Notes under the pieces: model-generated | Databases searched by the model: none | The model's input: the letters and a program-made list of their open reading frames with translations, nothing else | What the model was told of the DNA's origin: nothing | IMG/VR virus record: IMGVR_UViG_3300025789_000026 | Span: 1-64,000 of that record | Origin: a virus | Length of the DNA: 64,000 nt | Strand: one strand, 5' to 3' | Program-made: the position numbers and the translations under genes | Part shown: piece after piece, positions 39,049 to 58,862 of the stretch | How positions within the stretch are numbered: position 1 is the first letter of the stretch | Layout: every line of letters begins with the position of its first letter

Positions 39049-41934
39049 ATGGCAACTAAAAATATAAATGCGGAAAAAATACAAGGTAATTTATCAATTA
39101 CTTCTGTATCAGCTACAACATATCAAAATTTACCTTTAGACATAAGGGTTACTGGTGGTACTTATTCAGCTGGTACAGCCACCTTTACCAATAATACTGG
39201 TGGAACATTCACCGTTACTGGTTTTAGTACAAGTAATGCAACGCAGTTTACTGGTGGTACTGTTACTGGTGCGACCCAATTTACTAATGGACTTTCGGCT
39301 AATACTATATCAGCAACAACATATTATAATCTACCTTTAGACATAAGGGTTACTGGTGGTACTTATTCAGCTGGTACAGCAACTTTCACAAATAATACTG
39401 GTGGTACATTTACCGTTACTGGGCTTACAACACCATTTAATGGTGGGGTAGTATCTGGTGCGACTCAATTTACTGGTGGCCTAACAGCTAATACAATAAC
39501 AAAATCTGGTGGTACAGCAACACAAATTCTTGTGGCTAATGGTGGTGTTATAAGTGGTGGTACTGGTATAAATATATCCGCTGGTACAATATCTGTTACG
39601 GGTGTAACTTCTGTTATTGTTCAAGACACTGGTACTGGTAGTACTGTAAGATGTGGTAATAATAACTTAGCTAGTGGTCTTTGTTCTGGTGCTCTTGCTG
39701 GTACTTATAACTGTGCAACAAATGCTAATTCTTTTGTTGGTGGTGGTACACATAATGTTGCTAGTGGTACGGCAAGTGCTGTAAATGGTGGTATCTCTAA
39801 TACATCATCTAATCAGTATTCAACAATAGGTGGTGGTAATACTAATTCGTCATCAGGTTACGCATCAACAGTAGGTGGTGGTCATACCAATTCATCATCA
39901 GGTTATGCATCAACAGTAAGTGGTGGTTATGGTAATGCATCTGTTGCTTATTATTCAACAGTAGGTGGTGGGTTAAGTAATACCGCTTCTGGTTATTGTT
40001 CATTTATTGGTGGTGGTACTTATAATAGTAGTAAGTGTTTTAATTCAGCACTAATTGGTGGACAAAATAATTCATCATCGGGTTATTTTTCAACAGTTGG
40101 TGGTGGTAGATTTGTTAAGGCAATAAATGCTTATTCAACAGTTGTTGGTGGGTTAAGTAATTCGGCTTACTGTAATTATTCATTTATAGGTGGTGGTAGA
40201 CACAATAAAATAAGAAAAGATATAAATGGTACTGTATCTTCACCTCTTTGCGGTAGCGGTGCTAGTGTTATTGCTGGTGGTCAAGGTAACGCTTTAGTCG
40301 GTTATAATAATTTTATTGGGGGTGGTGTGATGAATACTATAGGTTGTGGATTACAAACTTATAATATTATTAGTAATTGTAATAATTCAATTTGTGTTCA
40401 AGGAAATCAACCACAATTAAATGAACATTATGTTGAATATTATAATAACAGTGATTGTTTAGTATATGGTGGACGTATAATATATTCATCGTATTATGGA
40501 GGTTATTCAATTTTTTCAACAACTTTTTATGCGGGAAACAATGCTGGTGGTAATAAATTATATGATTTAACTTCATTAACTAATACCAATAAATGTTATC
40601 ATCATTCAATAATTGTTGGTGGTAAAATGAATACAATTTCTGGTAAATATAGTCCGAGTTCATTCATTGGTGGTGGATATAGAAATACCGCTTCTGGTTA
40701 TTGTTCAATAGTTGTTGGTGGTGGTTATAATTGTTCAAATGGTTCGGGTTCATTTATTGGTGGTGGTGGTGGTAATAGTATAAGTGGTACGTATAATTGT
40801 CAATCGTCAATAGTTGGTGGCCGTAATAATAGTGTTTCTAGTAGTTCTAGTGGGTTTTCATTCATTGGTGGTGGGACTTGTAATTCAATAAGTGGTTATG
40901 ATTCTGCTAATTCATTCATTGGTGGTGGTGCTTTTAATAGTATTTCTGGTTGGTACGCCTATTGGTCTACAATTAGTGGTGGTTATGGTAATCAGATTAC
41001 TGGATATAATTCATGTTATTCAACGATAAGTGGTGGTAGGAATAATAGTATTTCTGGATATAATTCAGGTTGGTCAACGATAAGTGGTGGTAGATTTAAT
41101 ACAATTTCTGGTTGTTATACTCTTTATTCAACAATAGGTGGTGGTCATGGTAATCAGATTACTGGTACAAATTCACAGTATTCAACAATAAGTGGTGGAT
41201 ATAATAATTATATTAATGGAACAAATTCACAGTATTCAACAATAGGTGGTGGTGTTGGTAATCAAATTTCTGGACAATATTCATATTATTCAACAATAGG
41301 TGGTGGTCATGGTAATCAGATTACTGGTACAAATTCATGTTATTCAACAATATCTGGTGGTAGGGTAAATTACATTTCTGGAACTAATTCATGTTATTCA
41401 ACAATAGGTGGTGGTTACGATAATCAGATTTCTGGAGATAATTCATACCTCTCAACAATAGGTGGTGGTATAATTAATACAATTTCTGGTTGTTATACTC
41501 TTTATTCAACGATAAGTGGTGGTTATAATAATCAGATTACTGGAACTAATTCACGATATTCAACAATAAGTGGTGGGATACATAATTATATTAATGGTAT
41601 AAATTCATTGGGTTCAACGATAAATGGAGGTGTAGGTAATTGTATATGTGGTACATACTCACAATATTCTACAATAGCTGGTGGTTATAGTAATTGTATT
41701 TCTGGGCAATATTCATTTGCTGCTGGATATGGTAATACAGTATCAGGTAGTTACTCAGCAGCTATAGGATTTGGGTTAAATGCAACTAGTTGGTGCACTT
41801 TATATATAAATAATTTAGTATCACCAACAATACAAACTAAAAATTATACAAATGACACAACAGCCGCTACTGGTGGAATACCAGTAGGTGGGGTATATCA
41901 TACCGCAGGTGTATTAAAAATAAGATTAACATAA
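39049..41934 (+). CDS. YadA-head-like fibre/adhesin (961 aa)
   Basis: The first ~130 residues carry two 'DIRVTGGTYSAGTATFTNNTGGTFTVTG' modules shared with the 857-residue fibre. From about residue 200 to 900 there is a long series of short left-handed-coil repeats with 'S(T/F)I(S/G)GG..N.ISG.(N/Y)S', like the head of trimeric autotransporter adhesins (YadA/Hep-Hag type). The last 14 are in perfect 18-residue register. The C-terminus ('TKNYTNDTTAATGGIPVGGVYHTAGVLKIRLT') is typical of phage fibre ends. A trimeric adhesive fibre is likely. The middle (about 430-505) contains a less regular, Tyr/Asn-rich insert. Confidence 0.78.
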   Translation: MATKNINAEKIQGNLSITSVSATTYQNLPLDIRVTGGTYSAGTATFTNNTGGTFTVTGFSTSNATQFTGGTVTGATQFTNGLSANTISATTYYNLPLDIRVTGGTYSAGTATFTNNTGGTFTVTGLTTPFNGGVVSGATQFTGGLTANTITKSGGTATQILVANGGVISGGTGINISAGTISVTGVTSVIVQDTGTGSTVRCGNNNLASGLCSGALAGTYNCATNANSFVGGGTHNVASGTASAVNGGISNTSSNQYSTIGGGNTNSSSGYASTVGGGHTNSSSGYASTVSGGYGNASVAYYSTVGGGLSNTASGYCSFIGGGTYNSSKCFNSALIGGQNNSSSGYFSTVGGGRFVKAINAYSTVVGGLSNSAYCNYSFIGGGRHNKIRKDINGTVSSPLCGSGASVIAGGQGNALVGYNNFIGGGVMNTIGCGLQTYNIISNCNNSICVQGNQPQLNEHYVEYYNNSDCLVYGGRIIYSSYYGGYSIFSTTFYAGNNAGGNKLYDLTSLTNTNKCYHHSIIVGGKMNTISGKYSPSSFIGGGYRNTASGYCSIVVGGGYNCSNGSGSFIGGGGGNSISGTYNCQSSIVGGRNNSVSSSSSGFSFIGGGTCNSISGYDSANSFIGGGAFNSISGWYAYWSTISGGYGNQITGYNSCYSTISGGRNNSISGYNSGWSTISGGRFNTISGCYTLYSTIGGGHGNQITGTNSQYSTISGGYNNYINGTNSQYSTIGGGVGNQISGQYSYYSTIGGGHGNQITGTNSCYSTISGGRVNYISGTNSCYSTIGGGYDNQISGDNSYLSTIGGGIINTISGCYTLYSTISGGYNNQITGTNSRYSTISGGIHNYINGINSLGSTINGGVGNCICGTYSQYSTIAGGYSNCISGQYSFAAGYGNTVSGSYSAAIGFGLNATSWCTLYINNLVSPTIQTKNYTNDTTAATGGIPVGGVYHTAGVLKIRLT
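40960..41720 (+). repeat. 54-bp tandem coding repeats (about 14 copies)
   Basis: The period is 54 bases (for example TCAACG at 41020 and 41074), encoding 18 residues of the form YSTISGG.NNQITGTNS. Some units are identical at DNA level, for instance those at about 41125 and 41295, showing recent duplication or gene conversion. Confidence 0.92.
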
Positions 41935-41950
41935 TAAATGTGTTTAATAA

Positions 41951-41968
41951 CATATTTATAATAATAAA
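41951..41968 (+). promoter_or_regulatory. late-type promoter motif
   Basis: CATATTTATAATAATAAA, 20 bases before the ATG of the small structural gene. Confidence 0.5.
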
Positions 41969-41988
41969 AATAAAAAAAAATAAAAAAA

Positions 41989-42327
41989 ATGATTTACGCT
42001 AAAATTAATCCAGTTGCTACAAAGGTAGAACAAATTACACCATTTTCAAGTACGACAATAACAGCAGATACAATAACTGCAATTGCTCGTCCATATATTT
42101 TAGGTTCAGATAAAACTAGATTTGAAGTTAAATATGGTAACGTAACTTTAGATGAAAATAACATTGTAATTAAATTTAATAATATATTATCAAGTGAATC
42201 AATATTAACTTCTGAACAATTATCTACTTGGGGTTCTGATGATTCAGTAGTACTTAATATTATTGCAACAAGTTTAGGAACATCAGTTACAGAAATTTTA
42301 AGTGGTGCCACTAGAAATATGTTCTAA
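41989..42327 (+). CDS. small structural protein, paralogue of 17405-17659
   Basis: A 112-residue beta-rich protein. 'ILTSEQLSTWGSDDSVVLNIIATSLG' matches the C-terminal half of the 84-residue protein at 17405. Both close or punctuate a fibre array and both have their own late motif, so they probably do the same structural job (adaptor, chaperone or cap). It is the last gene before the glycan-modification cluster. Confidence 0.6.
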   Translation: MIYAKINPVATKVEQITPFSSTTITADTITAIARPYILGSDKTRFEVKYGNVTLDENNIVIKFNNILSSESILTSEQLSTWGSDDSVVLNIIATSLGTSVTEILSGATRNMF

Positions 42328-42331
42328 AGTA

Positions 42332-42362
42332 TTGACAAATAGGATTTATATTCATAAATTTA
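42332..42362 (+). promoter_or_regulatory. probable Bacteroidota-type promoter of the glycan/sulfation cluster
   Basis: TTG at 42332-42334, exactly 20 bases, then TAAATTTA at 42355-42362, one base off the TAnnTTTG box. The ATG follows 4 bases later, so the transcript would be almost leaderless. No late-type motif lies here. Confidence 0.42.
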
Positions 42363-42366
42363 CCCT

Positions 42367-43242
42367 ATGAATATAATTTTTCAAATTAATGGTGGTATGG
42401 GTAAGTGTATCATGGCCACCGCAGTATGTGAAGCTATAAAAAAACAATACCCAGATGATACTTTAATTGTAGTATCTGGCTACCCAGACGTGTTTTTAAA
42501 TAACCCAAATATTGATAGAACATACGCATTTAATGGGTTTTCTTATTTCTATGAAGATTACATAGAAAATAAAAAATTTAAAGTTTTAGCTCACGACCCG
42601 TACTTAGAAACAACTCATTTGTTACAAAATGAACACCTTATTATTACATGGTGTAATATGTTTGGTATTACTTATAATGGTGAACAACCTAAAATTTATC
42701 TTAGTGATAGAGAGAAGAAGTTTTACGGGAATAAGTATGTTTTTGAAAAACCAATCTTATTACTACAAACAAATGGTGGTGCAAGTACTGATATGAAATA
42801 TTCTTGGGCTAGGGATATTCCAGTTGTAGTTGCAGCCTCAGTAATTGATGAATTTAAAGATGCTTATACAATTTTACACATAAGAAGAGATGACCAATTC
42901 ATCTTAGAAAACACAATACCAGTTACAGATAATTTTAGGGCATTGGCAGTATTAATTAGTATTAGTAGAAAAAGATTATTCTTAGATAGCTTCGCACAAC
43001 ATACAGCAGCTGCTTTAAATATGAATTCAACCGTTTGTTGGATTGCTAATAAGCCAGAAGTATTCGGTTATGAATTACACGATAATATCATAGCAAATCA
43101 TTTTACCGTTAAACCAGAACTTAAGGGTTCATATTTACAAAAATTTAATATTAGTGGCGATTTATTAGAATTTCCTTTTAATAGTGAAAAGGAAATCTTT
43201 AATATCGAACAAATAATTAATTCAATTAAAAAGCAAAAGTAA
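42367..43242 (+). CDS. GT9/heptosyltransferase-like glycosyltransferase
   Basis: A 291-residue GT-B-like protein resembling ADP-heptose:LPS heptosyltransferases (family GT9). The N-terminal nucleotide-binding strand and loop are 'IIFQINGGMGKCIMATAVCEAIKKQYPDDTLIVVSGYPDVFLNNPNIDRTY'. 'PILLLQTNGG' is the second-domain start, and 'RLFLDSFAQHTAAALNMNSTVCW' corresponds to the family's acceptor and donor loop ('D.....HlAaAlg.p.v'). It transfers an activated sugar; donor and acceptor are unknown. It is the first gene of a four-gene run ending with APS kinase, so its product is probably the glycan that is then sulfated (inference). Confidence 0.7.
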   Translation: MNIIFQINGGMGKCIMATAVCEAIKKQYPDDTLIVVSGYPDVFLNNPNIDRTYAFNGFSYFYEDYIENKKFKVLAHDPYLETTHLLQNEHLIITWCNMFGITYNGEQPKIYLSDREKKFYGNKYVFEKPILLLQTNGGASTDMKYSWARDIPVVVAASVIDEFKDAYTILHIRRDDQFILENTIPVTDNFRALAVLISISRKRLFLDSFAQHTAAALNMNSTVCWIANKPEVFGYELHDNIIANHFTVKPELKGSYLQKFNISGDLLEFPFNSEKEIFNIEQIINSIKKQK

Positions 43243-44151
43243 TTGCAAAACCCTTTTAAAAATATAAAATCATATACCAAACCCAAAAGTAACAATATTG
43301 CGGTATGTTCTGTTTTTTTTAATGCTGGTAATTTTACTAAAACAATAATGAATAATCTATATGTGGATAATCTTCTTAAAAAAAGTGAAATACCTCATTA
43401 TATGATTGAATTAATTTATCCAAATCAAAAACCAACATTTATTGAAAGTGAATTTGTATTTCACGTTAAATCTAATTCATACATGTTTCATAAAGAAAAT
43501 TTATTTAACATTTTAGTAAATAATTTACCTAAGCACATAAACAAGATTGTTTGTTTGGATGGTGATGTTATTTTTGAGAATAAAGATTGGATAAATGATG
43601 TTGATAGCGAATTAGATAAATATGATGTTGTAGTACCGTATCATGATGGTTGTAATTTAGACCCTTATTTTGATAAGGTCTTATTTCATGCTAAAACGCT
43701 TTTAGATATTAGATATGATACTGATGATGGTCCATTTTGTTCTGGTTATGCAATAGCATTCAGACGTAGTTTTTTTGAAACTATAGGTATGTATGAATAT
43801 GCTATTTTCGGTGGTGGGGATAAGATGAACTTAGTTAATTATATAAGACGACCAATAATGATTAATTCATTTAATTCAACAAAAAAAGATGATTATATTC
43901 AAAAACTAAAGTCCTTAAATTTAACATATTCTTATTTAGGTGGTATAGTCTATCATTTATATCATGGTAACGCTTTAGATAGAAAGTATTTAGATAGACA
44001 TGTACTTTTACAAGGTTTACAATTAGACACTGAAATTACAAAAAATGCTGATGGTGTTTTAGAATTTGTAAACCCACAGAAATATAATAAAATAATGTAT
44101 GATTATTTCATTGGAAGAAATGAAGATTATATAGACCCAAATTTACTTTAA
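43243..44151 (+). CDS. GT-A fold glycosyltransferase
   Basis: A 302-residue protein with the GT-A signature. 'IAVCSVFFNAGNFTKTIMNNLYVDNLL' is the first strand and helix, the metal-binding DxD is in 'IVCLDGDVIFENKDW', and 'DDGPFCSGYAIAFRRSFFETIGMYEYAIFGGGDKM' is the acceptor-side loop with the 'GGGD' equivalent of the usual GxED. Translation begins at a TTG abutting the previous gene's TAA; there is no ATG in frame for 30 codons. It is tightly coupled to the GT9-like gene before it and lies 1 base before the sulfotransferase. Confidence 0.75.
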   Translation: MQNPFKNIKSYTKPKSNNIAVCSVFFNAGNFTKTIMNNLYVDNLLKKSEIPHYMIELIYPNQKPTFIESEFVFHVKSNSYMFHKENLFNILVNNLPKHINKIVCLDGDVIFENKDWINDVDSELDKYDVVVPYHDGCNLDPYFDKVLFHAKTLLDIRYDTDDGPFCSGYAIAFRRSFFETIGMYEYAIFGGGDKMNLVNYIRRPIMINSFNSTKKDDYIQKLKSLNLTYSYLGGIVYHLYHGNALDRKYLDRHVLLQGLQLDTEITKNADGVLEFVNPQKYNKIMYDYFIGRNEDYIDPNLL

Positions 44152-44152
44152 T

Positions 44153-44971
44153 ATGATAGAACAAATATTTTATCAGAGTTCAATGCCTCGTGCGGGTTCA
44201 ACTCTATTACAAAACATTTTAGCACAAAATCCAGATATATACGCGACACCAACATCTGGTGTTCTTGAATTAATTTTTGCTGCTAGAGGTAATTACACCT
44301 CATCACCTGAGTTTAAAGCACAAGACCCTGAATTGATGAAATCAGGATTCCTTAACTTTTGTAAAGAAGGTATGTATGGATTTTATAATGGGATTACGGA
44401 TAAAAAGTATGTTATCGATAAGAGTAGAGGGTGGGGAATTCATTATGATTTTTTAAACCTTATACATGGTAACCCAAAGATTATATGTATGGTTAGGGAC
44501 CCTAGGGATATATTTACATCAATGGAAAAAAACTTTAGAAAAGCTAGTGATAAAGCAAGTCCGTTGGTTGATTGGAGTAAAATGCAAGGAACAACGACAC
44601 CTAAGCGTATTGATATGTGGGTTCAAAATCCACCAGTTGGTATGGCATTTGAACGTTTAGGTGAAATGATTAGAATGGGTATTGATAGTAAAATTCATTT
44701 TGTAAGATTTGAAGACTTGTGTCTTTATCCAGAACAAACTCTAGGTAAGATATATGCTTATTTAGATATTCCATATTTTAAACATGATTTTGATAATATC
44801 GAACAAATAACAAAAGAAGATGATGAAGTTTATGGTGTGTATGGTGACCATACTATCAGAACAACACTTGAACCAGTTACATCTAAAGCTAAGGAAATTC
44901 TAGGTAAGGATGTTTGTGATTGGATAATGAATAATTATAAATGGTATAACGATAAATTTAGATACAAATGA
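44153..44971 (+). CDS. PAPS-dependent sulfotransferase
   Basis: A 272-residue protein. The 5'-phosphosulfate-binding loop 'SSMPRAGSTLLQNIL' is at residues 9-23, and the 3'-phosphate-binding motif 'CMVRDPRDIFTSMEKNFRKASDK' starts near residue 112 with the conserved Arg and a Ser. Later come 'VRFEDLCLYPEQTLGKIYAYLDIPY', the family's 'YEdL...P...l..i..fL' element, and a His (in 'GDHTIRTT') that may contact the acceptor. It transfers sulfate from PAPS to a hydroxyl or amine acceptor, here probably a glycan made by the adjacent glycosyltransferases, or a protein. It overlaps the APS kinase gene as ATGA, so the two are made together. Confidence 0.85.
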   Translation: MIEQIFYQSSMPRAGSTLLQNILAQNPDIYATPTSGVLELIFAARGNYTSSPEFKAQDPELMKSGFLNFCKEGMYGFYNGITDKKYVIDKSRGWGIHYDFLNLIHGNPKIICMVRDPRDIFTSMEKNFRKASDKASPLVDWSKMQGTTTPKRIDMWVQNPPVGMAFERLGEMIRMGIDSKIHFVRFEDLCLYPEQTLGKIYAYLDIPYFKHDFDNIEQITKEDDEVYGVYGDHTIRTTLEPVTSKAKEILGKDVCDWIMNNYKWYNDKFRYK

Positions 44972-45396
44972 TAATTTGGTTAACTGGCCAGCCAAGTTCT
45001 GGTAAAACAACAATAGGAAAGGAGTTATTAAAAAGAAAAGAATTTAGTAACGCATTTTTAATTGATGGTGATAAATTAAGGGAATTATTCAATAATCAAG
45101 ACTATTCTGAAAAAGGTAGAAGAGAAAATATTGAATTAGCTCAGAATTTAGCTTACTACATTAATGATAATTTTAAAACGGTTATCGTTGCAATGGTATC
45201 CCCATACAGGGACCAAAGAGAACGTTTTAAGGAAAAAATGGGTGAAGATATTAAAGAATATTATATACATACAAGTGAAATTAGAGGTAGGGAAAACTTC
45301 CATGTAAGTGATTATGAACCACCATTATTTAATTTTATAGATATCGATACAACAGCAAAAACACCTGAAGAGTCATCAAAATTAATATCAATTTAA
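44968..45396 (+). CDS. cysC: adenylylsulfate (APS) kinase, short form
   Basis: 142 residues with the P-loop 'GQPSSGKTT' (7-15), the APS-binding 'DGDKLRELFN' (33-42), 'DYSEKGRRENI' (45-55, equivalent to 'FS..DR.ENI' of CysC) and 'AMVSPYRDQRERF' (equivalent to 'SPYR.DR'). The C-terminal 'DYEPPLFNFIDIDTTAKTPEES' corresponds to 'YE.P..pel.ldT'. It phosphorylates APS to PAPS, the donor for the overlapping sulfotransferase gene. It is about 50 residues shorter than bacterial CysC because the lid and loop region ('PLE..E.RDPKGLY...') is replaced by a compact segment. The ATP-sulfurylase step must come from the host. Confidence 0.85.
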   Translation: MIIWLTGQPSSGKTTIGKELLKRKEFSNAFLIDGDKLRELFNNQDYSEKGRRENIELAQNLAYYINDNFKTVIVAMVSPYRDQRERFKEKMGEDIKEYYIHTSEIRGRENFHVSDYEPPLFNFIDIDTTAKTPEESSKLISI

Positions 45397-45443
45397 AGAT
45401 ATTTTAAACATTTCTAAGAATAACTTATTTTTCTGTTTTTTTT

Positions 45444-45459
45444 GAATATTTATTAATAA
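45444..45459 (+). promoter_or_regulatory. late-type promoter motif before the tail sheath gene
   Basis: GAATATTTATTAATAA, 26 bases before the ATG. Confidence 0.5.
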
Positions 45460-45485
45460 CAATAATTAAATTAAAAAAAAACAAT

Positions 45486-48400
45486 ATGGCAAATCAAGTA
45501 TTCGTTAGTCCAGGTGTTTACACTTCAGAATTAGACCTAACATATGTAACCCGTCAAGTAGGTGTTACAACATTAGGGTTGGTCGGTGAAACAACAAAAG
45601 GACCAGCTTTTCAACCAATTTTCATTAGTGATTATGGTGGCTTCCAAACATTTTTTGGGGGGTTAGATAATACATTAGTAAATGGACCAGATGGTAATGG
45701 TGCTCCATTGTATGAGTTACCATACATTGCAAAATCTTACTTATCTCAATCAAATCAGTTATTCGTAACAAGGATATTGGGTCTTTCTGGATACCATGCT
45801 GGTTTAGCTTGGGGTATCACGCTTAGTGCGGCATTAGACCCGACAACAACTGGTACATCATATGTTTCAACTTATACAGCAAATTATACAGTTACTACTG
45901 GTGATACTCTTTATAGTATCCAAACAACTGATAGTAATTTAAATGCTTATTATCAACAAAACCCATCAGCATTTAGCTTTTTGGCTGGTGCAACTACTGG
46001 GCAAAGCTATACAATATACATACCACAAGTTAAAAATGGTCTTATATTTAGTGGTGGTTATATTACATTTAATATTATTTCTGCCAGTGTTACACCATTT
46101 ATTACTGCTGGTACAGTAACAAATATTTACCCAAATTCTGGTTCATCAACTTTATTAACTTATAAACTTACAACAGGTGGTACTCTTACTTCAATTGTAT
46201 CTACTGATTCATTTGTTAATCAAGTTTATACCGCAACACCTAGTTATTTTAATTTATTTATTACAGCAGCAACTGGTACAGCACAAAATATACTAATACC
46301 ACAAACATCAGATGGTACAACATTCTATGGTGGTAATATTAATTCAAAAGTTCTTTCAACTGGTTATACAGATGCATCAATACCTGTTTCAGCAAGTTCA
46401 CCAACTAATTTTACATATACTGCGTCATCAAATAGTAATGTTCTTTATGGTATAACATCTACTGATTCATTTGTTAATCAAATTTATGCTGCTAGTGCAA
46501 GTAGTTTTAATTTCTTAACTGGTGCTACAATTGGTACACAACAAATTTTAACTGAACCAACATTATTATATGGTGGTAATAACTATAGTGGTGGTTATAT
46601 AACAATTAATGTTGCTACAACTGGTTACTCTAGTAGCATATTAACTGGTAATTCTATATCACAATTTTTTGGTACATATTCAGCAAGTACTGGAAATACA
46701 CTTTATTCAACAACAGCAACTGCTGGTGGTGGTGCTAACGCATATAATCAATATTATCAACAAAATCCATCAGCATTTACCTTTATAGCTAGTGGTGTTA
46801 GTCAAACAATACAAACCCCAAATGTTTATAACGGTATTCTTTATAGTTACAATACATTAGCTATTACACCATATGCAACTGGTTATACAAATGGTGGTAA
46901 TATAACAGCTGTTGGTAATGCAAATATATACCCAGATACTAGTGGTAATGCTCTATTCTCATATACAGCTTCAACCACAGCAAATACACTTAGTAGTTTT
47001 GTATCAACGGATGCAATAACAAATCAAATTTATGCTGCTAGTGCAAGTAACTTTAACTTCTTAACTGGTGCTACATTAAATTCAACTGGTTCTTTAGCTA
47101 CAGCTTATGCTCCAAACGGAATTAATTTTAATTATAGTGGTATTAATTATAATATTAATGTATTAAATTATACAACACCAGTAACAAGTGCTATAACTTC
47201 TGGATATACCGCTGTATATTCAGCTAGTACTAATGGTATACTTTATTCTACATATAGTCTTAATAATTCAATATATAACTTAGTTTACGCTGCTAATCCA
47301 GTTCCTTTTTACTTCTTAGCAACAGCTAATACTGGTGCAACAAGTAATATTGCTATAACACGCACACAAATTGGTGCTTACTTTAGTGGTGGTAATGTAA
47401 GTGTAAATGTACTTTCAACTGGTTTTACAAGTCCATCTAGTGTAAATACAGCTGGAACAGTTGGTGTTGGAAGTAATTACATAACAAATTTAAATGGTGT
47501 TGTATCTTCTTACGCATTGACTAATGTATATGGTAACCCAAATTATGTTACTTATTTTAGTGGTTCAGTATCACCTTCAGCGTTTACTTTCTTAAATACT
47601 GCTAGTACTGGTACTATAACTGGTCCAACATCAAATAACGGTGCTTACTTTACTGGTGGTAGTATTGCAGTAAGTGTACTTTCAACAGGTTATACAAACC
47701 CATCTAGTTTAACAGCATCTACTTCAGTATTTAATGGTACATTCTCTGCAACAACTGGTGGTACACTTAATACAACAAGTGCAACTGGTGGTGCTGGTTC
47801 AGGTTTATATAACTCAGCTTATGCGGCTACACCAAGTGCATTTAACTTCTTAGCAACTGGTGGTACTTATTCAGTTGTAAATGCGCCATCATCGTCTAAC
47901 GGTGCTAATTTTACTAGTGCAAATACTGTAACAATAGTTGCTTTTGCAACTGGTTATACAAACCCATCTAGTGCAACAACAGCAACTACACAGTTTACTG
48001 GTGTATACTCAGCAAGTACTGGTAATACTCTTTATTCAACAAGTGCAGTTGGTGCTGGTTCAGGTTTATATAACTCAACTTATGCAACTACACCAAGTGC
48101 GTTTAACTTCTTAACTGGTGGTACAGGTGGAATTGTAACAATAGGTCAATCATCAAATGGTATTAACTATAGTAGTGGTACACTTAATTTAAGTGTTCTT
48201 TCAACTGGTTATACAAACCCATCAAGTGGTACAACTGTTAGTACATCAGCTTATACAGCAACGTTCTCGGCTAATTCAAGTAATTTACTTTACACAACTA
48301 GTGGTTCAACACCATTGTATAATAGTACATATAGTGTAAATCCTAATATATTTAACGTAATATCTTCAACAGCTACAGGTACAACAGTTAACTTAGCAAC

Positions 48401-51400
48401 AACTTACACACCAAATGGTATTAATTATAGTGGTGCAAATATTAGCGCATATATAGTTTCGACTGGTTATACAAGTCCATCTAGTGCAACTACAATTAGT
48501 TCATTTACTGGTACTTACGCAGTTAATTTAGGAAACCACACAATTATTAGTACACCAACATTTAGTACACCAATTGCTAATCAAATATATTCAACATACT
48601 CAGCTAGTAGCTTTGGTTTTATATATTCAGCAAATAACAATTCTAGTTATGTTGTAAATGTACCTCAAACACAAGTTGGTGCGGTTGCTACTAGTGGAAA
48701 TATGTTAACAACAATTAATAGTATAACACCATCTGGTTCATTTACAAACCCATTATTTAATTATACTGGTAATACGTTTACGTATACGGCTAACTCAAGT
48801 AATGGTAATATTGTTGCTATAAATATTCCAGCGTCTAATTCTGGTACAACATTTTTCTACAATTATGGTCCTTACTATTTTAATGGTTTTGGTCTTTTAT
48901 CTCCAGGTCAATCATTAACACTTAATTATAATATTGATTGGTTACAATATAGCCCTAACTATACTAGTTACATGGACATTTATATGCTTTCACAAAACTA
49001 TGTGGTAACGCAAACTGGTACAACTGGTCAATATATTACAGGTACAACAAGTGGTTTCACTAATGGTTATGCGATTGCTTATAATAACATTACTGTTGGT
49101 GTTGGTGGGAATACGACTATAAATACTACATTATATAATATTACTGGTACAACAACTGGTTTAACTGTAAGTACTACAGGTTATTATCAATCTGTAACTG
49201 GTTCTACTAGTGGTTTAACAACAGTTAACTCTGGTATTTACCAATCAATTACTGGTTCAACAAGTGGTACAAGTAGAACTAATTCTGGTTCATATCAAAG
49301 TATTCAATATAATATGACTGGTACTAGTAGTGTTAACACTGGTATTTACCAATCAATTACTGGTTCAACAAGTGGTACAACTATAATTAGTGGTGGTGTT
49401 TATACTTTACTAATTGGTTCAACAAGTGGTACAAGTCAATCATACACTGGTAATTACCAATCAATTACTGGTTCTACAAGTGGTATTACAACACAATATA
49501 GTGGTTATTATCAAAACTTAACTGGTACAACAAATAATGTCACATTAACATATAATGGTTTCTATAGTAGTATTACTGGTTCTACAAGTGGTAGTAGCTA
49601 TACTTACTATGGTGATAATGCTGGTGATTTAACTGGTTTAACAACTGGTATAAGTTACGCTTATACTGGTAGTGGTTATTCGGATGTTGAAGGAAAGATA
49701 ATAGCACTTTTACGTTCTAGGGCTACGGTTGACGTATCAACTCAATTACCAACATTCCAAATTGCTAATGTAACTGATATTAACTTTAGTTCAACTGCAA
49801 CTGGTGCAACAAAAAATCCTTTAGGTATATTTAATTTGACTGGTACATCTGTAACGCAAGGTATATTTAATTATGAACTTTCATTTGATGTTACTAAAAA
49901 AGATTACGTTCCTAGAGCATTAGGTAGAATGGCTTTTGATAAAAAGACATCAGTATTCGTTGAGGAATTTTACGGTAATGTATTTACTAATGACTTTAAT
50001 GAAGGTAAAATTTATGGTATTAACCAAAGTTTAATTAATTACTCTTCACCAGGTGAATTTGGTCCATTTGATAACTATTTACAACAATATCAATCTGCTG
50101 TTACCCCATATGTGGTATCGGAAGTTAAGGGTAACCAAGTTATTAGATTATTTAGATTCTGGACAATATCAGATGGTAATATGGCTAATATGGAAATTAA
50201 AGTTTCAATTGCTAATATTAGACCTGATACTCAAGAATTTGATGTACAAATTAGAGATTATAACGATACAGATGCTAGACCTAAAATCCTAGAAGCTTAT
50301 AGTCGTTGTAATTTAGACCCAACTTCAAATAATTACATTGGTCAATTAATTGGTACATATGATGGTGCTTATGCGTCAAAATCTTCTTACGTACTTGTTG
50401 AATTAGATGTGAACTCAGATACAACTGATGCTTTCCCAGCTGGTTTTGTTGGGTACCCAGTAAGAGATTACCAAACTAGTGGTAATGATAGTGTATTAAC
50501 ACCAGATATTATGTATTATAAGGCTTACGGTACATATGATAACCCACGTAAATTCTATTTAGGTTTAAATGATACTGTTGGTATCGATACAGACTTCTTT
50601 GATTACAAAGGTTTACCAATAAAAGGTTTAGAATATAGCGAATGGACTGGACTTACACCAGGTTATCACATGGATATTAATGCTAGTGCGGTAACAATTG
50701 CTGATATTGCTGAATACATAAATGGTGGTTCTGGAGCGACTTATAACCCAATATTTAAATTTGATACTGGTGACGCACCATTCCAAAGTGAAGCTGGTGT
50801 TCAAGGTACGCCATACGCAAACTTATATGCTCGTAAATTTACACTTGTACCTTATGGTGGTTTCGATGGTTGGGACATTTATAGAACAAGAAGAACGAAC
50901 TTGGACACTTACGATATTAAGGGTAAGGGTGGTCAAACTGGTTTAAGTTATGGAGCATTTTCTAAGTATCCTCTTCAAGATGGTTCAGAAGGTCTTACAT
51001 CAGATTACTACGCATATTTAGAAGGTATTTGGACATTTATAAATCCTGAAGCTGTTAATATAAATGTGTTTGCAACACCAGGTATTGATACTTTCGATAA
51101 CCAATCATTGGTTAACCAAACTATTGAAATGGTTGAGAATAACAGAGCTGACTCATTGTACATAGTTACAACACCAGATTCTGATTCTACTGGTACTCCA
51201 TTGACGGTTTCAAATGTGGTTGATGAGCTTAATGGTAATTTTGATAGTAACTATACAGCAACGTATTGGCCTTGGGTTCAAATATTTGATTCTGAAAACA
51301 CAACATACATATATGTTCCACCAACAAGAGATGTTGTAAGAAATATCGCTTTAACTGATAACATTTCATTCCCATGGTTTGCTGTGGCTGGTGTTAACAG

Positions 51401-51866
51401 AGGTTCGGTAGATTGTATTAAAGCTAGAGTTAAATTAACGCAAACAGATAGGGATACACTTTATGAAAATAGAATTAATCCTATCGCAACATTTGCTTCA
51501 AATGGTGTTAATATCTGGGGTAATAAAACACTTCAAGTTGCTGATACTTATCTTAATAGAATCAACATTAGAAGACTTTTATTACAAGCAAGAAAACTTA
51601 TTTCTGCTGTTTCAATCAGATTGTTGTTCGAACAAAATGATGCTGTGGTTAGAAATCAATTCTTATCACTTGTTAACCCAATATTGGATAACATTAGAAG
51701 CGAAAGAGGTCTTTCTGATTTTAGAGTTGTGTTAAATAATAGCCCAGAAGATTTTGATAATAATCAATTAACTGGTCAAATATTCCTTAAACCAACAACA
51801 GCGTTAGAATTCATTCAAATTCAATTTGTTATACTTCCATCAGGTGCATCATTTGATAACATTTAA
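45486..51866 (+). CDS. tail sheath protein with giant repeat insertion
   Basis: A 2126-residue contractile sheath subunit. Residues 1 to about 115 ('VFVSPGVYTSELDLTYVTRQVGVTTLGLVGETTKGPAF', 'SQSNQLFVTRILGLSGYHAGLAWGIT') and about 1400-2126 ('VEGKIIALLRSRATVDV', 'KNPLGIFNLTG', 'DYVPRALGRMAFDKK', 'FVILPSGASFDNI') are normal T4/gp18-like sheath and together have the usual size of about 850 residues. Between them lie about 1280 Thr/Ser/Asn/Gly-rich residues in two repeat families. Sheath domains are known to accept surface insertions, but one longer than the protein itself is exceptional. It would cover the tail in a dense coat and offers many hydroxyls for glycosylation. Confidence 0.92.
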   Translation: MANQVFVSPGVYTSELDLTYVTRQVGVTTLGLVGETTKGPAFQPIFISDYGGFQTFFGGLDNTLVNGPDGNGAPLYELPYIAKSYLSQSNQLFVTRILGLSGYHAGLAWGITLSAALDPTTTGTSYVSTYTANYTVTTGDTLYSIQTTDSNLNAYYQQNPSAFSFLAGATTGQSYTIYIPQVKNGLIFSGGYITFNIISASVTPFITAGTVTNIYPNSGSSTLLTYKLTTGGTLTSIVSTDSFVNQVYTATPSYFNLFITAATGTAQNILIPQTSDGTTFYGGNINSKVLSTGYTDASIPVSASSPTNFTYTASSNSNVLYGITSTDSFVNQIYAASASSFNFLTGATIGTQQILTEPTLLYGGNNYSGGYITINVATTGYSSSILTGNSISQFFGTYSASTGNTLYSTTATAGGGANAYNQYYQQNPSAFTFIASGVSQTIQTPNVYNGILYSYNTLAITPYATGYTNGGNITAVGNANIYPDTSGNALFSYTASTTANTLSSFVSTDAITNQIYAASASNFNFLTGATLNSTGSLATAYAPNGINFNYSGINYNINVLNYTTPVTSAITSGYTAVYSASTNGILYSTYSLNNSIYNLVYAANPVPFYFLATANTGATSNIAITRTQIGAYFSGGNVSVNVLSTGFTSPSSVNTAGTVGVGSNYITNLNGVVSSYALTNVYGNPNYVTYFSGSVSPSAFTFLNTASTGTITGPTSNNGAYFTGGSIAVSVLSTGYTNPSSLTASTSVFNGTFSATTGGTLNTTSATGGAGSGLYNSAYAATPSAFNFLATGGTYSVVNAPSSSNGANFTSANTVTIVAFATGYTNPSSATTATTQFTGVYSASTGNTLYSTSAVGAGSGLYNSTYATTPSAFNFLTGGTGGIVTIGQSSNGINYSSGTLNLSVLSTGYTNPSSGTTVSTSAYTATFSANSSNLLYTTSGSTPLYNSTYSVNPNIFNVISSTATGTTVNLATTYTPNGINYSGANISAYIVSTGYTSPSSATTISSFTGTYAVNLGNHTIISTPTFSTPIANQIYSTYSASSFGFIYSANNNSSYVVNVPQTQVGAVATSGNMLTTINSITPSGSFTNPLFNYTGNTFTYTANSSNGNIVAINIPASNSGTTFFYNYGPYYFNGFGLLSPGQSLTLNYNIDWLQYSPNYTSYMDIYMLSQNYVVTQTGTTGQYITGTTSGFTNGYAIAYNNITVGVGGNTTINTTLYNITGTTTGLTVSTTGYYQSVTGSTSGLTTVNSGIYQSITGSTSGTSRTNSGSYQSIQYNMTGTSSVNTGIYQSITGSTSGTTIISGGVYTLLIGSTSGTSQSYTGNYQSITGSTSGITTQYSGYYQNLTGTTNNVTLTYNGFYSSITGSTSGSSYTYYGDNAGDLTGLTTGISYAYTGSGYSDVEGKIIALLRSRATVDVSTQLPTFQIANVTDINFSSTATGATKNPLGIFNLTGTSVTQGIFNYELSFDVTKKDYVPRALGRMAFDKKTSVFVEEFYGNVFTNDFNEGKIYGINQSLINYSSPGEFGPFDNYLQQYQSAVTPYVVSEVKGNQVIRLFRFWTISDGNMANMEIKVSIANIRPDTQEFDVQIRDYNDTDARPKILEAYSRCNLDPTSNNYIGQLIGTYDGAYASKSSYVLVELDVNSDTTDAFPAGFVGYPVRDYQTSGNDSVLTPDIMYYKAYGTYDNPRKFYLGLNDTVGIDTDFFDYKGLPIKGLEYSEWTGLTPGYHMDINASAVTIADIAEYINGGSGATYNPIFKFDTGDAPFQSEAGVQGTPYANLYARKFTLVPYGGFDGWDIYRTRRTNLDTYDIKGKGGQTGLSYGAFSKYPLQDGSEGLTSDYYAYLEGIWTFINPEAVNINVFATPGIDTFDNQSLVNQTIEMVENNRADSLYIVTTPDSDSTGTPLTVSNVVDELNGNFDSNYTATYWPWVQIFDSENTTYIYVPPTRDVVRNIALTDNISFPWFAVAGVNRGSVDCIKARVKLTQTDRDTLYENRINPIATFASNGVNIWGNKTLQVADTYLNRINIRRLLLQARKLISAVSIRLLFEQNDAVVRNQFLSLVNPILDNIRSERGLSDFRVVLNNSPEDFDNNQLTGQIFLKPTTALEFIQIQFVILPSGASFDNI
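45840..48755 (+). repeat. about 11 repeats of about 85 residues in the sheath insertion
   Basis: Each unit has the order 'YSASTGNTLYST', '..Y..NPSAFNFL(T/A)GAT', 'NGI.YSGG.I...VLSTGYTNPSS'. The units are clearly related but diverged in sequence, so the tract is not a simple assembly or slippage product. DNA identity is highest in the last few units, around 47650-48250. Confidence 0.88.
49010..49680 (+). repeat. about 11 repeats of about 18-20 residues in the sheath insertion
   Basis: The units read 'GIYQSITGSTSGTS' with a 4-6 residue variable link. The core TCAATTACTGGTTCAACAAG is reused almost unchanged. A second repeat family therefore follows the first within the same insertion. Confidence 0.88.
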
Positions 51867-51986: not shown

Positions 51987-53543
51987 ATGAAAATAAAGTT
52001 AAATTGTATAAACTGTAATAATGATTTTGAAACGGAGTTTAAATATAGAAGTAAGAAGTTTTGTGGTAGGAAGTGTTTTTTTGAATATTCTAAAGAGCAT
52101 AAAACTATTGGTAGAAAAATAGATGAAGAAATAAGGGAAAAAAGAATTTGTTTAATTTGTAATAAAGAATTTGAGTGTAAGAAAAAACAAGAAAATAAAA
52201 TGTGTTCTAATGAGTGTAGAAAAGAATGGAACTCTATAGAAGAAAATAAGTCTAATAGAATAAAATTAAGTAAAGATACATTATTAATAAATCATGGTGT
52301 TGATTCAATGTTTAAGAAAATTGAATATAAAGCTAACCGTAATCAAATTTTCTTAGATAAAATAGGTGTTATAAATCCGATGAAAGATAAGTTAATTGTA
52401 AATAAACTACAAAAAACTCTGAATGAAAAACAAATTAAAAACTTACTACCAAAACTTAATGAACATAATATAATATTACTTGATGAATACAGTGTAAATA
52501 AAAGTGGTTCAACATCAATGTCTTATAATTTTAAATGTAAAAAGTGTGAAAATATATTTTCAAGTACCGTGCTTGGTTCTGGTAAGATACCAATTTGTAG
52601 AAAATGTACACCGTTAGAAAAAAATTCAAAAATTGAAGAAGTAATAAAGGATTTTTTAAATTTAAAAAATATTAAACACTTAGATAACAGTAGAAAAATA
52701 CTTAACGGTAAAGAGATTGATATATTCTTGAGCGATTTTAATTTAGGTATAGAGGTAGACGGCAATTATTTTCATAGTGAAATAAGTGGTGAAAAAGATA
52801 GTAAATATCATTTAAGTAAAACAAAATTAGCACATGAAAAAAATATAAAATTAATACACATATTTGAAGACGAAATACTATATAAAAAAGACATAGTATT
52901 ATCTAGATTGAGTAATCAGTTAAATTTAAATAATATAAGATACTTTGCAAGAAATTGTGAAATTAGAATTGTAAGTAAAAAAGAATCTACTTTATTTTTA
53001 GATAATAATCATATTCAAGGAAATTCTATTGATTTAATAAGATTAGGGTTATATTATAATAATATATTAATTTCATTAATGACATTTGGTAAAGAGCGAA
53101 AAGCTTTAGGTAATATAGAAACTGAGGATACTTATGAATTGGTTAGATTTTGTAATTTAATAAATTCTAATGTTGTTGGTGGGTTTTCTAAACTTTTAAA
53201 ACATTTTATTGTAACATATAAACCTAAAAAAATTGTAACTTACGCTGATATTAGATGGTCTGGATTAAATGAATTAGATACTGTTTATATAAAAAATGGT
53301 TTTAAGTATATTAAAAATACATCACCAAATTATTGGTACTTAAAAGTTGGACAATATAATCATAGATATCATAGATATAATTTTAGAAAAGATATTCTAG
53401 TTAAAGAAGGTTTTGATAAAAACATGTCTGAATTTGAGATTATGAAATTAAAGGAATTTGATAGAATATGGGACTGTGGAAATATGAAATTTGAATGGAC
53501 TAGAAATTCAATTTGTAATCATGAACTCAGGTGCATCATTTGA
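51987..53543 (+). CDS. VSR/PD-(D/E)XK-type homing endonuclease with zinc fingers
   Basis: A 518-residue free-standing mobile endonuclease. The N-terminus has two Cys2-Cys2-type modules ('LNCINCNNDFETEFKYRSKKFCGRKC' and 'RICLICNKEFECKKKQENKMCSNEC') and a third Cys4 at about 183-205 ('FKCKKCENIF...PICRKC'). The catalytic core at about 235-310 has 'GKEIDIFLSDFNLGIEVDGNYFHSE' (D, E.D..Y.H) and 'KLIHIFEDEI'. A large C-terminal domain (about 325-500, 'SLMTFGKERKALG...YELVRFCNL', 'TYADIRWSGLNEL.Y.KNGF') resembles the DNA-binding part of related phage endonucleases. Its last codons (RCII, stop) lie inside a second copy of the sheath gene's 3' end. It is expressed from its own host-type promoter. Confidence 0.8.
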   Translation: MKIKLNCINCNNDFETEFKYRSKKFCGRKCFFEYSKEHKTIGRKIDEEIREKRICLICNKEFECKKKQENKMCSNECRKEWNSIEENKSNRIKLSKDTLLINHGVDSMFKKIEYKANRNQIFLDKIGVINPMKDKLIVNKLQKTLNEKQIKNLLPKLNEHNIILLDEYSVNKSGSTSMSYNFKCKKCENIFSSTVLGSGKIPICRKCTPLEKNSKIEEVIKDFLNLKNIKHLDNSRKILNGKEIDIFLSDFNLGIEVDGNYFHSEISGEKDSKYHLSKTKLAHEKNIKLIHIFEDEILYKKDIVLSRLSNQLNLNNIRYFARNCEIRIVSKKESTLFLDNNHIQGNSIDLIRLGLYYNNILISLMTFGKERKALGNIETEDTYELVRFCNLINSNVVGGFSKLLKHFIVTYKPKKIVTYADIRWSGLNELDTVYIKNGFKYIKNTSPNYWYLKVGQYNHRYHRYNFRKDILVKEGFDKNMSEFEIMKLKEFDRIWDCGNMKFEWTRNSICNHELRCII

Positions 53544-57971: not shown

Positions 57972-58862
57972 ATGGTAATTTGTAAAGAATGTAATAGAGA
58001 GTTTGAAACGTTAGATGCTTTAAGAAGACATCGTGTTCAAAAACATAAAGTATCCGCTGAACAAACATATATTGATTATGTATTAGATGGAATTGAACCT
58101 AAATGTAAATGTGGTTGTAATGAAAAACCTAAATTTTTAGGTGTTGAAGTTGGTTTTAGGGATTATAAATTAGGTCATGCTTCTAGGGTAAATAACAATT
58201 GGGGACATAATCCTAATGCTATAAAAAAATCACATGAAACTCAAAAAAAAATGCACGAGAATGGTGAGCTAACAATTTGGAATAAAGGGTTAACAATTGA
58301 AGACGATAGAGTTAGGGATAATATTACTAAAGTTATGTCAAACCCAGAACGTGGTAACAATATCTCAAAAAAATTAACTGGTGTTGCTAAGAGTCAGGAA
58401 CATATTAAAAAAATAAAGGAACATTCAAAATTAAGATGGGAAAATCCAGAAGAACGTGAAAAACAATCTAATAGAAGAATGGAGTATATAATTAAAAATG
58501 GTTTTACACCAACTTCAAAATTAGAAGAAACATTTGAAAAAATATTAATTGATAATTTTAATTTTAAACTTGATAAGGATTATTACTATCAATTTTATGT
58601 TAGAAAAATTAAAGCAATTTTTGATTTTAAAATTTCAGGTAAAAAAATATTAATTGAGGTTGATGGTGATTATTGGCATTGTAACCCAAATTCAAGATAT
58701 GCTGAACCAACTTCAGATGCACAAATAGGTAATTTAATTCAAGACAAAATTAAATCTGAATGGTGTATTGAGAATGGTTTTAAATTACTTAGATTTTGGG
58801 AATCAGATATTAAAAATGATTTAGAATCGGTTATTAAAAAATTAAAAGAAGAATTACTTTAA
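57972..58862 (+). CDS. VSR/PD-(D/E)XK-type homing endonuclease
   Basis: A 296-residue free-standing mobile endonuclease. It starts with a C2H2 zinc finger ('VICKECNREFETLDALRRHRVQKHK', residues 2-26), then a second Cys cluster ('PKCKCGCNEKPKF'). A middle NUMOD-like, basic helical region follows ('KKLTGVAKSQEHIKKIKEHSKLRWENPEEREKQ'). The catalytic core at about 190-290 has 'AIFDFKISGKKILIEVDGDYWHCNP', 'IQDKIKSEWCIENGFKLLRFWESDI'. The core is the same type as in the broken endonuclease at 5070-5959 (both 'DGDYWHCNP' or 'NGDYWHCNP'). It is inserted between the tube gene and the tail chaperone gene. Confidence 0.83.
   Translation: MVICKECNREFETLDALRRHRVQKHKVSAEQTYIDYVLDGIEPKCKCGCNEKPKFLGVEVGFRDYKLGHASRVNNNWGHNPNAIKKSHETQKKMHENGELTIWNKGLTIEDDRVRDNITKVMSNPERGNNISKKLTGVAKSQEHIKKIKEHSKLRWENPEEREKQSNRRMEYIIKNGFTPTSKLEETFEKILIDNFNFKLDKDYYYQFYVRKIKAIFDFKISGKKILIEVDGDYWHCNPNSRYAEPTSDAQIGNLIQDKIKSEWCIENGFKLLRFWESDIKNDLESVIKKLKEELL

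Follow-up and report, generated by a model that had tools for sequence, protein, structure and literature searches.

A candidate operon for a sulfated glycan among the tail genes of an uncultured phage

The stretch of DNA analysed here (the window) comprises bases 1-64000 of a 107,001-bp IMG/VR virus record, IMGVR_UViG_3300025789_000026, and contains a compact cassette of four genes. By its tail and replication genes, the 107-kb record is assigned to a phage. A first-pass annotation had described the cassette as four plus-strand genes with spacings of 0, 1 and -4 bases; the open reading frame (ORF) coordinates agree exactly, and the last pair overlaps as ATGA:

42367..43242, plus strand: GT1, core gene; glycosyltransferase (GT) with a predicted GT9/heptosyltransferase fold, 291 aa, ATG start (fold match of an AlphaFold2 model)
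43243..44151, plus strand: GT2, accessory gene; probable GT-A glycosyltransferase, 302 aa, TTG start (Pfam match below the cut-off)
44153..44971, plus strand: ST, core gene; predicted sulfotransferase dependent on 3'-phosphoadenosine 5'-phosphosulfate (PAPS), 272 aa, ATG start (Pfam and motifs)
44968..45396, plus strand: APSK, core gene; compact, predicted adenosine 5'-phosphosulfate (APS) kinase, 142 aa, ATG start (Pfam, PDB profile matches and motifs)

Both ST and APSK score above their Pfam gathering thresholds, as their earlier identification would lead one to expect, and the PAPS-binding and APS kinase motifs quoted for them are present. ST matches Sulfotransfer_3 (PF13469) with 70.6 bits against a threshold of 27 (E 3e-19) and Sulfotransfer_1 (PF00685) with 50.4 bits against 22. 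Its PAPS-binding residues (S9, S10, P12, R13, G15, S16 and T17 of the 5' phosphosulfate loop; R115 and S123 of the 3' phosphate motif) are at least 98% conserved among 62 distinct relatives, and by family and motif it is classed as a PAPS-dependent sulfotransferase. APS kinases possess a P-loop, together with Arg and Asn residues that contact APS. In APSK, which passes the Pfam APS_kinase cut-off (64.1 bits against 21.1, E 2e-17), the P-loop, DGDxxR and RxxN positions (G12, K13 and T15; D33-G34-D35 and R38; R51 and N54) are invariant in 30 relatives and align with their equivalents in a solved APS kinase domain. The strongest matches in a profile search of PDB were likewise APS kinases. The proposal that the kinase and the sulfotransferase form a make-and-use pair for PAPS is thus backed by both family assignments.

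The two upstream genes had been annotated as glycosyltransferases, a designation that is only partly borne out, GT1 supporting it through its predicted fold. The GT1 model (pLDDT 87) retrieved the GT9 structure 3tov (E 2e-13) and 1psw (E 3e-10) from PDB, with TMq values of 0.65-0.68, and WaaF, WaaC and TibC were among its nearest structures. A PDB sequence search with the GT1 profile gave no matches, only the fold search giving any, and comparison with the NCBIfam heptosyltransferase III model reached only E 0.008. GT1 is therefore best described as GT9-like by its modelled GT-B fold, rather than as a filed GT9 member, and it looks like a heptosyltransferase. Across 28 phage relatives its identity is 41-79%; against near relatives its dN/dS is 0.05-0.17. 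GT2 falls short of the Pfam cut-off for Glycos_transf_2 (PF00535; E 0.021, 15.2 bits against 23.3) and can be called a glycosyltransferase only weakly.

An IMG/VR scan with ST yielded 111 relatives, the best 80 loci of which were kept (54-100% identical); removal of near-identical loci left 44 non-redundant loci. GT1 is the gene immediately 5' of ST in 34 of the 40 loci that could be scored; APSK lies immediately 3' of ST in 29 of the 44 and somewhere in the locus in 39. Because GT1-ST-APSK adjacency is kept in most non-redundant loci, the arrangement is not due to chance. A separate scan with GT1 as the query found ST in 73 of 80 loci, a redundant set that overlaps the first. Relative to near relatives, dN/dS ranges from 0.04 to 0.27, and GT1-ST-APSK is under purifying selection. 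The expectation that the genes would be linked in relatives, not scattered, and in the same order thus holds for GT1-ST-APSK. It fails for GT2, which occurs in 3 of 40 scorable non-redundant loci and has homologues only in L002, L003, L007 and L016, its TTG start being kept in all four. A unit of all four genes was rejected on account of this rarity. Taken together, the order counts and dN/dS values indicate that GT1-ST-APSK is the working unit and GT2 an extra, i.e., an accessory insertion outside the conserved unit. The unit is shared by dozens of uncultured, aquatic tailed phages and mostly stands 3' of a repeat-rich fibre gene: in 24 of the 32 non-redundant loci that could be scored, such a gene lies no more than three ORFs before GT1. 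Some relatives show variations on ST itself: a second, divergent copy of about 265 aa directly follows it in L029, L035, L040, L041, L044, L062, L068 and L069, and the 500-aa ST frame of L021 looks like a fusion of two copies.

Several relatives offer a clue to the sugar. For example, in L010, L013, L014, L018, L036 and L072, the genes directly 3' of APSK encode a cupin protein, a capsule-type phosphatase, an HldE-like kinase and adenylyltransferase, and an HldD-like epimerase. The matches are strong (E 2e-25 to 3e-52), yet below equivalog cut-offs, and the set resembles an ADP-heptose pathway. Combined with the fold predicted for GT1, these genes point to heptose, which we favour by a modest degree as the sugar transferred.

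The neighbourhood of the cassette bears on the acceptor. Tail genes flank it on both sides, encoding fibre-like proteins, a lectin-domain protein, a sheath, a baseplate hub and a tape measure. The nearest of these neighbours are as follows:

39049..41934, plus strand: repeat-rich, fibre-like protein of 961 aa, candidate acceptor (fibre-type cluster near GT1 in relatives)
41989..42327, plus strand: small 112-aa protein between the fibre and GT1 (cluster c6)
45486..51866, plus strand: predicted tail sheath of 2126 aa, a downstream neighbour outside the conserved unit (Pfam Phage_sheath_1, PHROG tail sheath)

The fibre consists of 26% Ser plus Thr and 11% Asn. The small protein downstream of it belongs to a cluster present in 26 of 80 loci, its place being taken elsewhere by other small proteins (clusters c8 and c23). 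The sheath, which the first-pass annotation had expected to adjoin the cassette in relatives, does so in only a minority; it was rejected as a constant partner, as other genes lie downstream in many relatives, and the upstream fibre is the more constant neighbour. In the window, the C-terminal sheath domain is preceded by a very long Ser/Thr/Asn-rich repeat region, and the sheath homologues of L008 and L074 reach only about 1055 aa. Two homing or HNH endonuclease-like genes also lie among the tail genes (51987-53543 and 57972-58862), and an Rfam scan of 40000-48000 gave no match. Outside the cassette, the record encodes a single-strand DNA-binding protein, a UvsX-like recombinase, a DnaB-like helicase and a ribonucleotide reductase. 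For sheath and helicase, the nearest matches, at roughly 27-38% identity, are to uncultured, Microcystis, Flavobacterium and Bacillus phages; none of these is a close cultured relative, and gene content identifies the source as a large contractile-tailed phage.

From these elements, the following route can be proposed. GT1, probably using ADP-heptose, would transfer a sugar to the acceptor, most likely the Ser/Thr/Asn-rich fibre encoded just upstream, and GT2, where present, may extend it. APSK would convert APS to PAPS, from which ST would move sulfate to the sugar; in the window's phage, the APS would be supplied by the ATP sulfurylase of the host. No hydrophobic stretch of the membrane-helix type occurs in any of the four cassette proteins, which fits action on a cytoplasmic protein. 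The chemistry, with PAPS produced and then spent on sulfating a GT1-built glycan, is very likely on the evidence of the gene families. That the cassette as a whole serves the phage as an operon for making a sulfated glycan, placed among tail genes, is probable, and for the acceptor we lean slightly towards a virion protein, most likely the tail fibre.

Several points weigh against this interpretation. APSK reaches only 64.6 bits against the NCBIfam apsK cut-off of 138.7 (TIGR00455), and the match ends at residue 102, the C-terminal part being shortened; it is therefore called APS-kinase-like, a divergent compact form. APSK is also missing from the stretch seen in some relatives. GT1 has no match to Pfam GT9 (PF01075) at E values up to 0.1, nor to any other Pfam glycosyltransferase family. 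A fibre-type ORF was not detected near GT1 in a quarter of the scorable loci, gene position is the sole pointer to the acceptor, and GT9 enzymes act on lipopolysaccharide (LPS) as well.

This last point leads to the main rival, namely that the sulfated sugar is placed on a host surface glycan, such as the LPS core or capsule, where it would alter the receptor and block superinfection or re-adsorption. In its favour, two enzymes that GT1 closely resembles in structure, WaaF and WaaC, have LPS as their substrate; entire sugar pathways, along with several additional glycosyltransferases, are encoded by some relatives; and phage glycosyltransferases that change the host serotype are known (discussed in PMC12619734). 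However, the cassette lies inside the tail gene block and usually adjoins a fibre, the window's version shows no recognisable flippase or lipid-carrier enzyme and its proteins lack a membrane segment, and the rest of the record looks lytic. A host-surface acceptor is accordingly considered possible but rather unlikely.

In most relatives, the unit is followed by two further genes, one for NT, an adenylyltransferase of ~128 aa with a HIGH motif (for example, L058:1208-1594), and one for DUF2061, a membrane protein that scores above its Pfam cut-off. NT is present in 30 of the 44 non-redundant loci, DUF2061 in 31, and both together with APSK in 27. In most relatives, NT would make APS from ATP and sulfate, and DUF2061 would be tied to sulfate assimilation. 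In L053, L060 and L061, the module is inverted relative to the fibre, and its two parts, APSK-NT and GT1-ST, are separated and in reversed order, an arrangement suggestive of movement as blocks; in L007, NT is located elsewhere in the genome. Its absence from the window is not readily ascribed to a window-edge artefact, an explanation that was rejected, given that NT is also missing from the 107-kb record and from a 139.9-kb near-twin (either may be incomplete). The window's phage would thus possess a reduced module lacking NT, and its APS would therefore have to come from the host.

What NT does was approached through its other settings. Among 20 close cellular relatives, from Marinimicrobia, Flavobacteriales, other bacteria and marine group III archaea, 18 have NT beside an APS kinase, and 77 of 78 viral contigs from a scan with NT as the query contain APSK. 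In one Bacteroidota locus, APSK-NT is followed by two sulfotransferases. In 54 of 60 SAR11 loci (L103-L162; for example, L104:7959-8339), NT is the gene immediately 5' of one for a QmoC-like membrane protein (AprM) and AprB-AprA, with AprB and AprA above curated cut-offs. Of 118 genomes from the SAR11 family, 65 encode AprA, and among these NT occurs in 60, Sat in 6 and CysD in 0; NT occurs in 15 of the 53 genomes without AprA (Fisher p 2e-13, to be taken only as a guide, as the genomes are related and some incomplete). In ~11 of the 15 Bacteroidota genomes that have it (L169-L179), DUF2061 has an APS kinase or a CysH- or CysD-like gene as its neighbour, one CysD-like neighbour having been checked against Pfam and the others judged by sequence resemblance. 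This linkage suggests a role in sulfate supply. As APS is the metabolite common to its settings, NT is proposed to make APS, or to consume it in SAR11. An APS-forming activity is likely on this genomic evidence, and NT is a candidate replacement for ATP sulfurylase in SAR11.

NT nevertheless falls outside the known ATP sulfurylase families and is only proposed to act like one: its sole Pfam match is CTP_transf_like, and it has no match to the Sat family (PF01747). It could instead be an ordinary nicotinamide mononucleotide (NMN) adenylyltransferase (NMNAT) that serves NAD supply in the relatives, with an indirect link to APS enzymes. By sequence and fold, NT is closest to NadM-type NMN adenylyltransferases, and a PDB fold search with its model did not separate NMNAT from ATP sulfurylase. 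NT does not pass the NCBIfam cut-offs for NMN adenylyltransferases (38.3 bits against 409; 36.2 against 127). Against an NMNAT role, its GRxxGY motif is invariant, and the 80-85 residues between its two nucleotide motifs (195 sequences) are fewer than in one aligned NMNAT. The linkage to APS kinase or APS reductase recurs in phages and in several groups of bacteria and archaea; in SAR11, where it also holds, AprA presence predicts NT while Sat and CysD are mostly absent. We consider the NMNAT assignment unlikely. APSK-NT also occurs in a second, different phage group (L208-L264) that lacks this cassette's ST; in some 15 of its loci, a small protein (e.g., L264:137-760) has sulfotransferase-like motifs but no Pfam match, and it was not used as evidence.

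Two other uses of the kinase and sulfotransferase deserve mention. Sulfotransfer_3 enzymes have varied acceptors, and glycan hypermodification of phage DNA is known (reference quoted in PMC12619734), so the pair might modify a small molecule or the phage's DNA instead of a glycan. This is very improbable, since GT1 stands beside ST in nearly all relatives, sugar-nucleotide genes accompany them in some, and the cassette lies in the tail genes, not the replication region. Still less credible is a role as auxiliary metabolic genes supplying the host's assimilation of sulfur, with PAPS as an intermediate on the way to sulfide and cysteine. In its favour, phage cysC has been described as a gene of assimilatory sulfur metabolism (PMC8190135), and DUF2061 adjoins CysH and CysD in Bacteroidota. 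Against it, the constant partners of APSK are a sulfotransferase and a glycosyltransferase, and no PAPS reductase was found among the annotated conserved ORF clusters of the relatives.

Returning to a phage-built sulfated glycan, a more far-reaching version can be sketched, in which a large aquatic phage group encodes a near-complete route from sulfate to glycan (NT as a new, minimal ATP sulfurylase, APSK, ST and the GT9-like enzyme) that places sulfated heptose on its own fibres, with NT as the missing APS-handling enzyme next to APS reductase in SAR11. As a whole, this version is tentative, and we do not expect all of it to hold.

Known systems resemble parts of the cassette. Bacterial Nod-factor and capsule sulfation loci of the NoeE family pair dedicated sulfate activation with a sulfotransferase. 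ST matches NoeE only distantly (E 4e-7, far below the cut-off), and those loci are cellular systems acting on cellular glycans, in contrast to a compact phage operon with a GT9-like enzyme. We know of no sulfation of adhesins modified by TibC or AAH. These autotransporter heptosyltransferases, of which TibC heptosylates adhesins (PMC4358343), share with GT1 a GT9-like fold, TibC being among its best matches, a repeat-rich surface protein encoded nearby and an ADP-heptose donor, here suggested by relatives. Unlike GT1, a phage protein of 291 residues coupled to sulfation, TibC has ~390 residues in its solved chains, extra domains and a dodecameric assembly; fibre heptosylation by GT1 is likened to it as an analogy and not as a claim of membership. 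Mycobacteriophage virions are glycosylated (Freeman et al. 2023, cited in PMC12619734), and phage-encoded glycosyltransferases decorate their structural proteins. Their glycans sit on the capsid and tail tube, and the passage citing them mentions no sulfation, whereas here ST is linked to a PAPS supply and the fibre is a candidate acceptor. Phage sulfotransferases have been noted earlier, with their function called unclear (PMC10580990). The Sulfotransfer_3 proteins of S-SKS1, S-SRM01, S-SCSM1 and OM43 phages are about 26-30% identical to ST, and in S-SRM01 the gene lies beside sugar genes. However, the annotated neighbourhoods in S-SKS1 and S-SRM01 contain no APS kinase product, though many neighbours are hypothetical. 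Phage cysC, for its part, has been reported as a metabolic gene (PMC8190135).

A literature search of limited, mainly non-subscription scope revealed no description of sulfated virions or of a sulfation cassette in phages, and within that scope a phage-built sulfated sugar appears to be a virus-made decoration not previously described. The conserved cassette ties a phage sulfotransferase to the synthesis of its own donor, a heptosyltransferase-like enzyme and tail fibres. If virions do carry sulfated sugars, this would represent a new phage surface chemistry with likely effects on adsorption. If NT makes APS, it would constitute a novel type of sulfate-activating enzyme and account for the many SAR11 genomes that have APS reductase but no known ATP sulfurylase.

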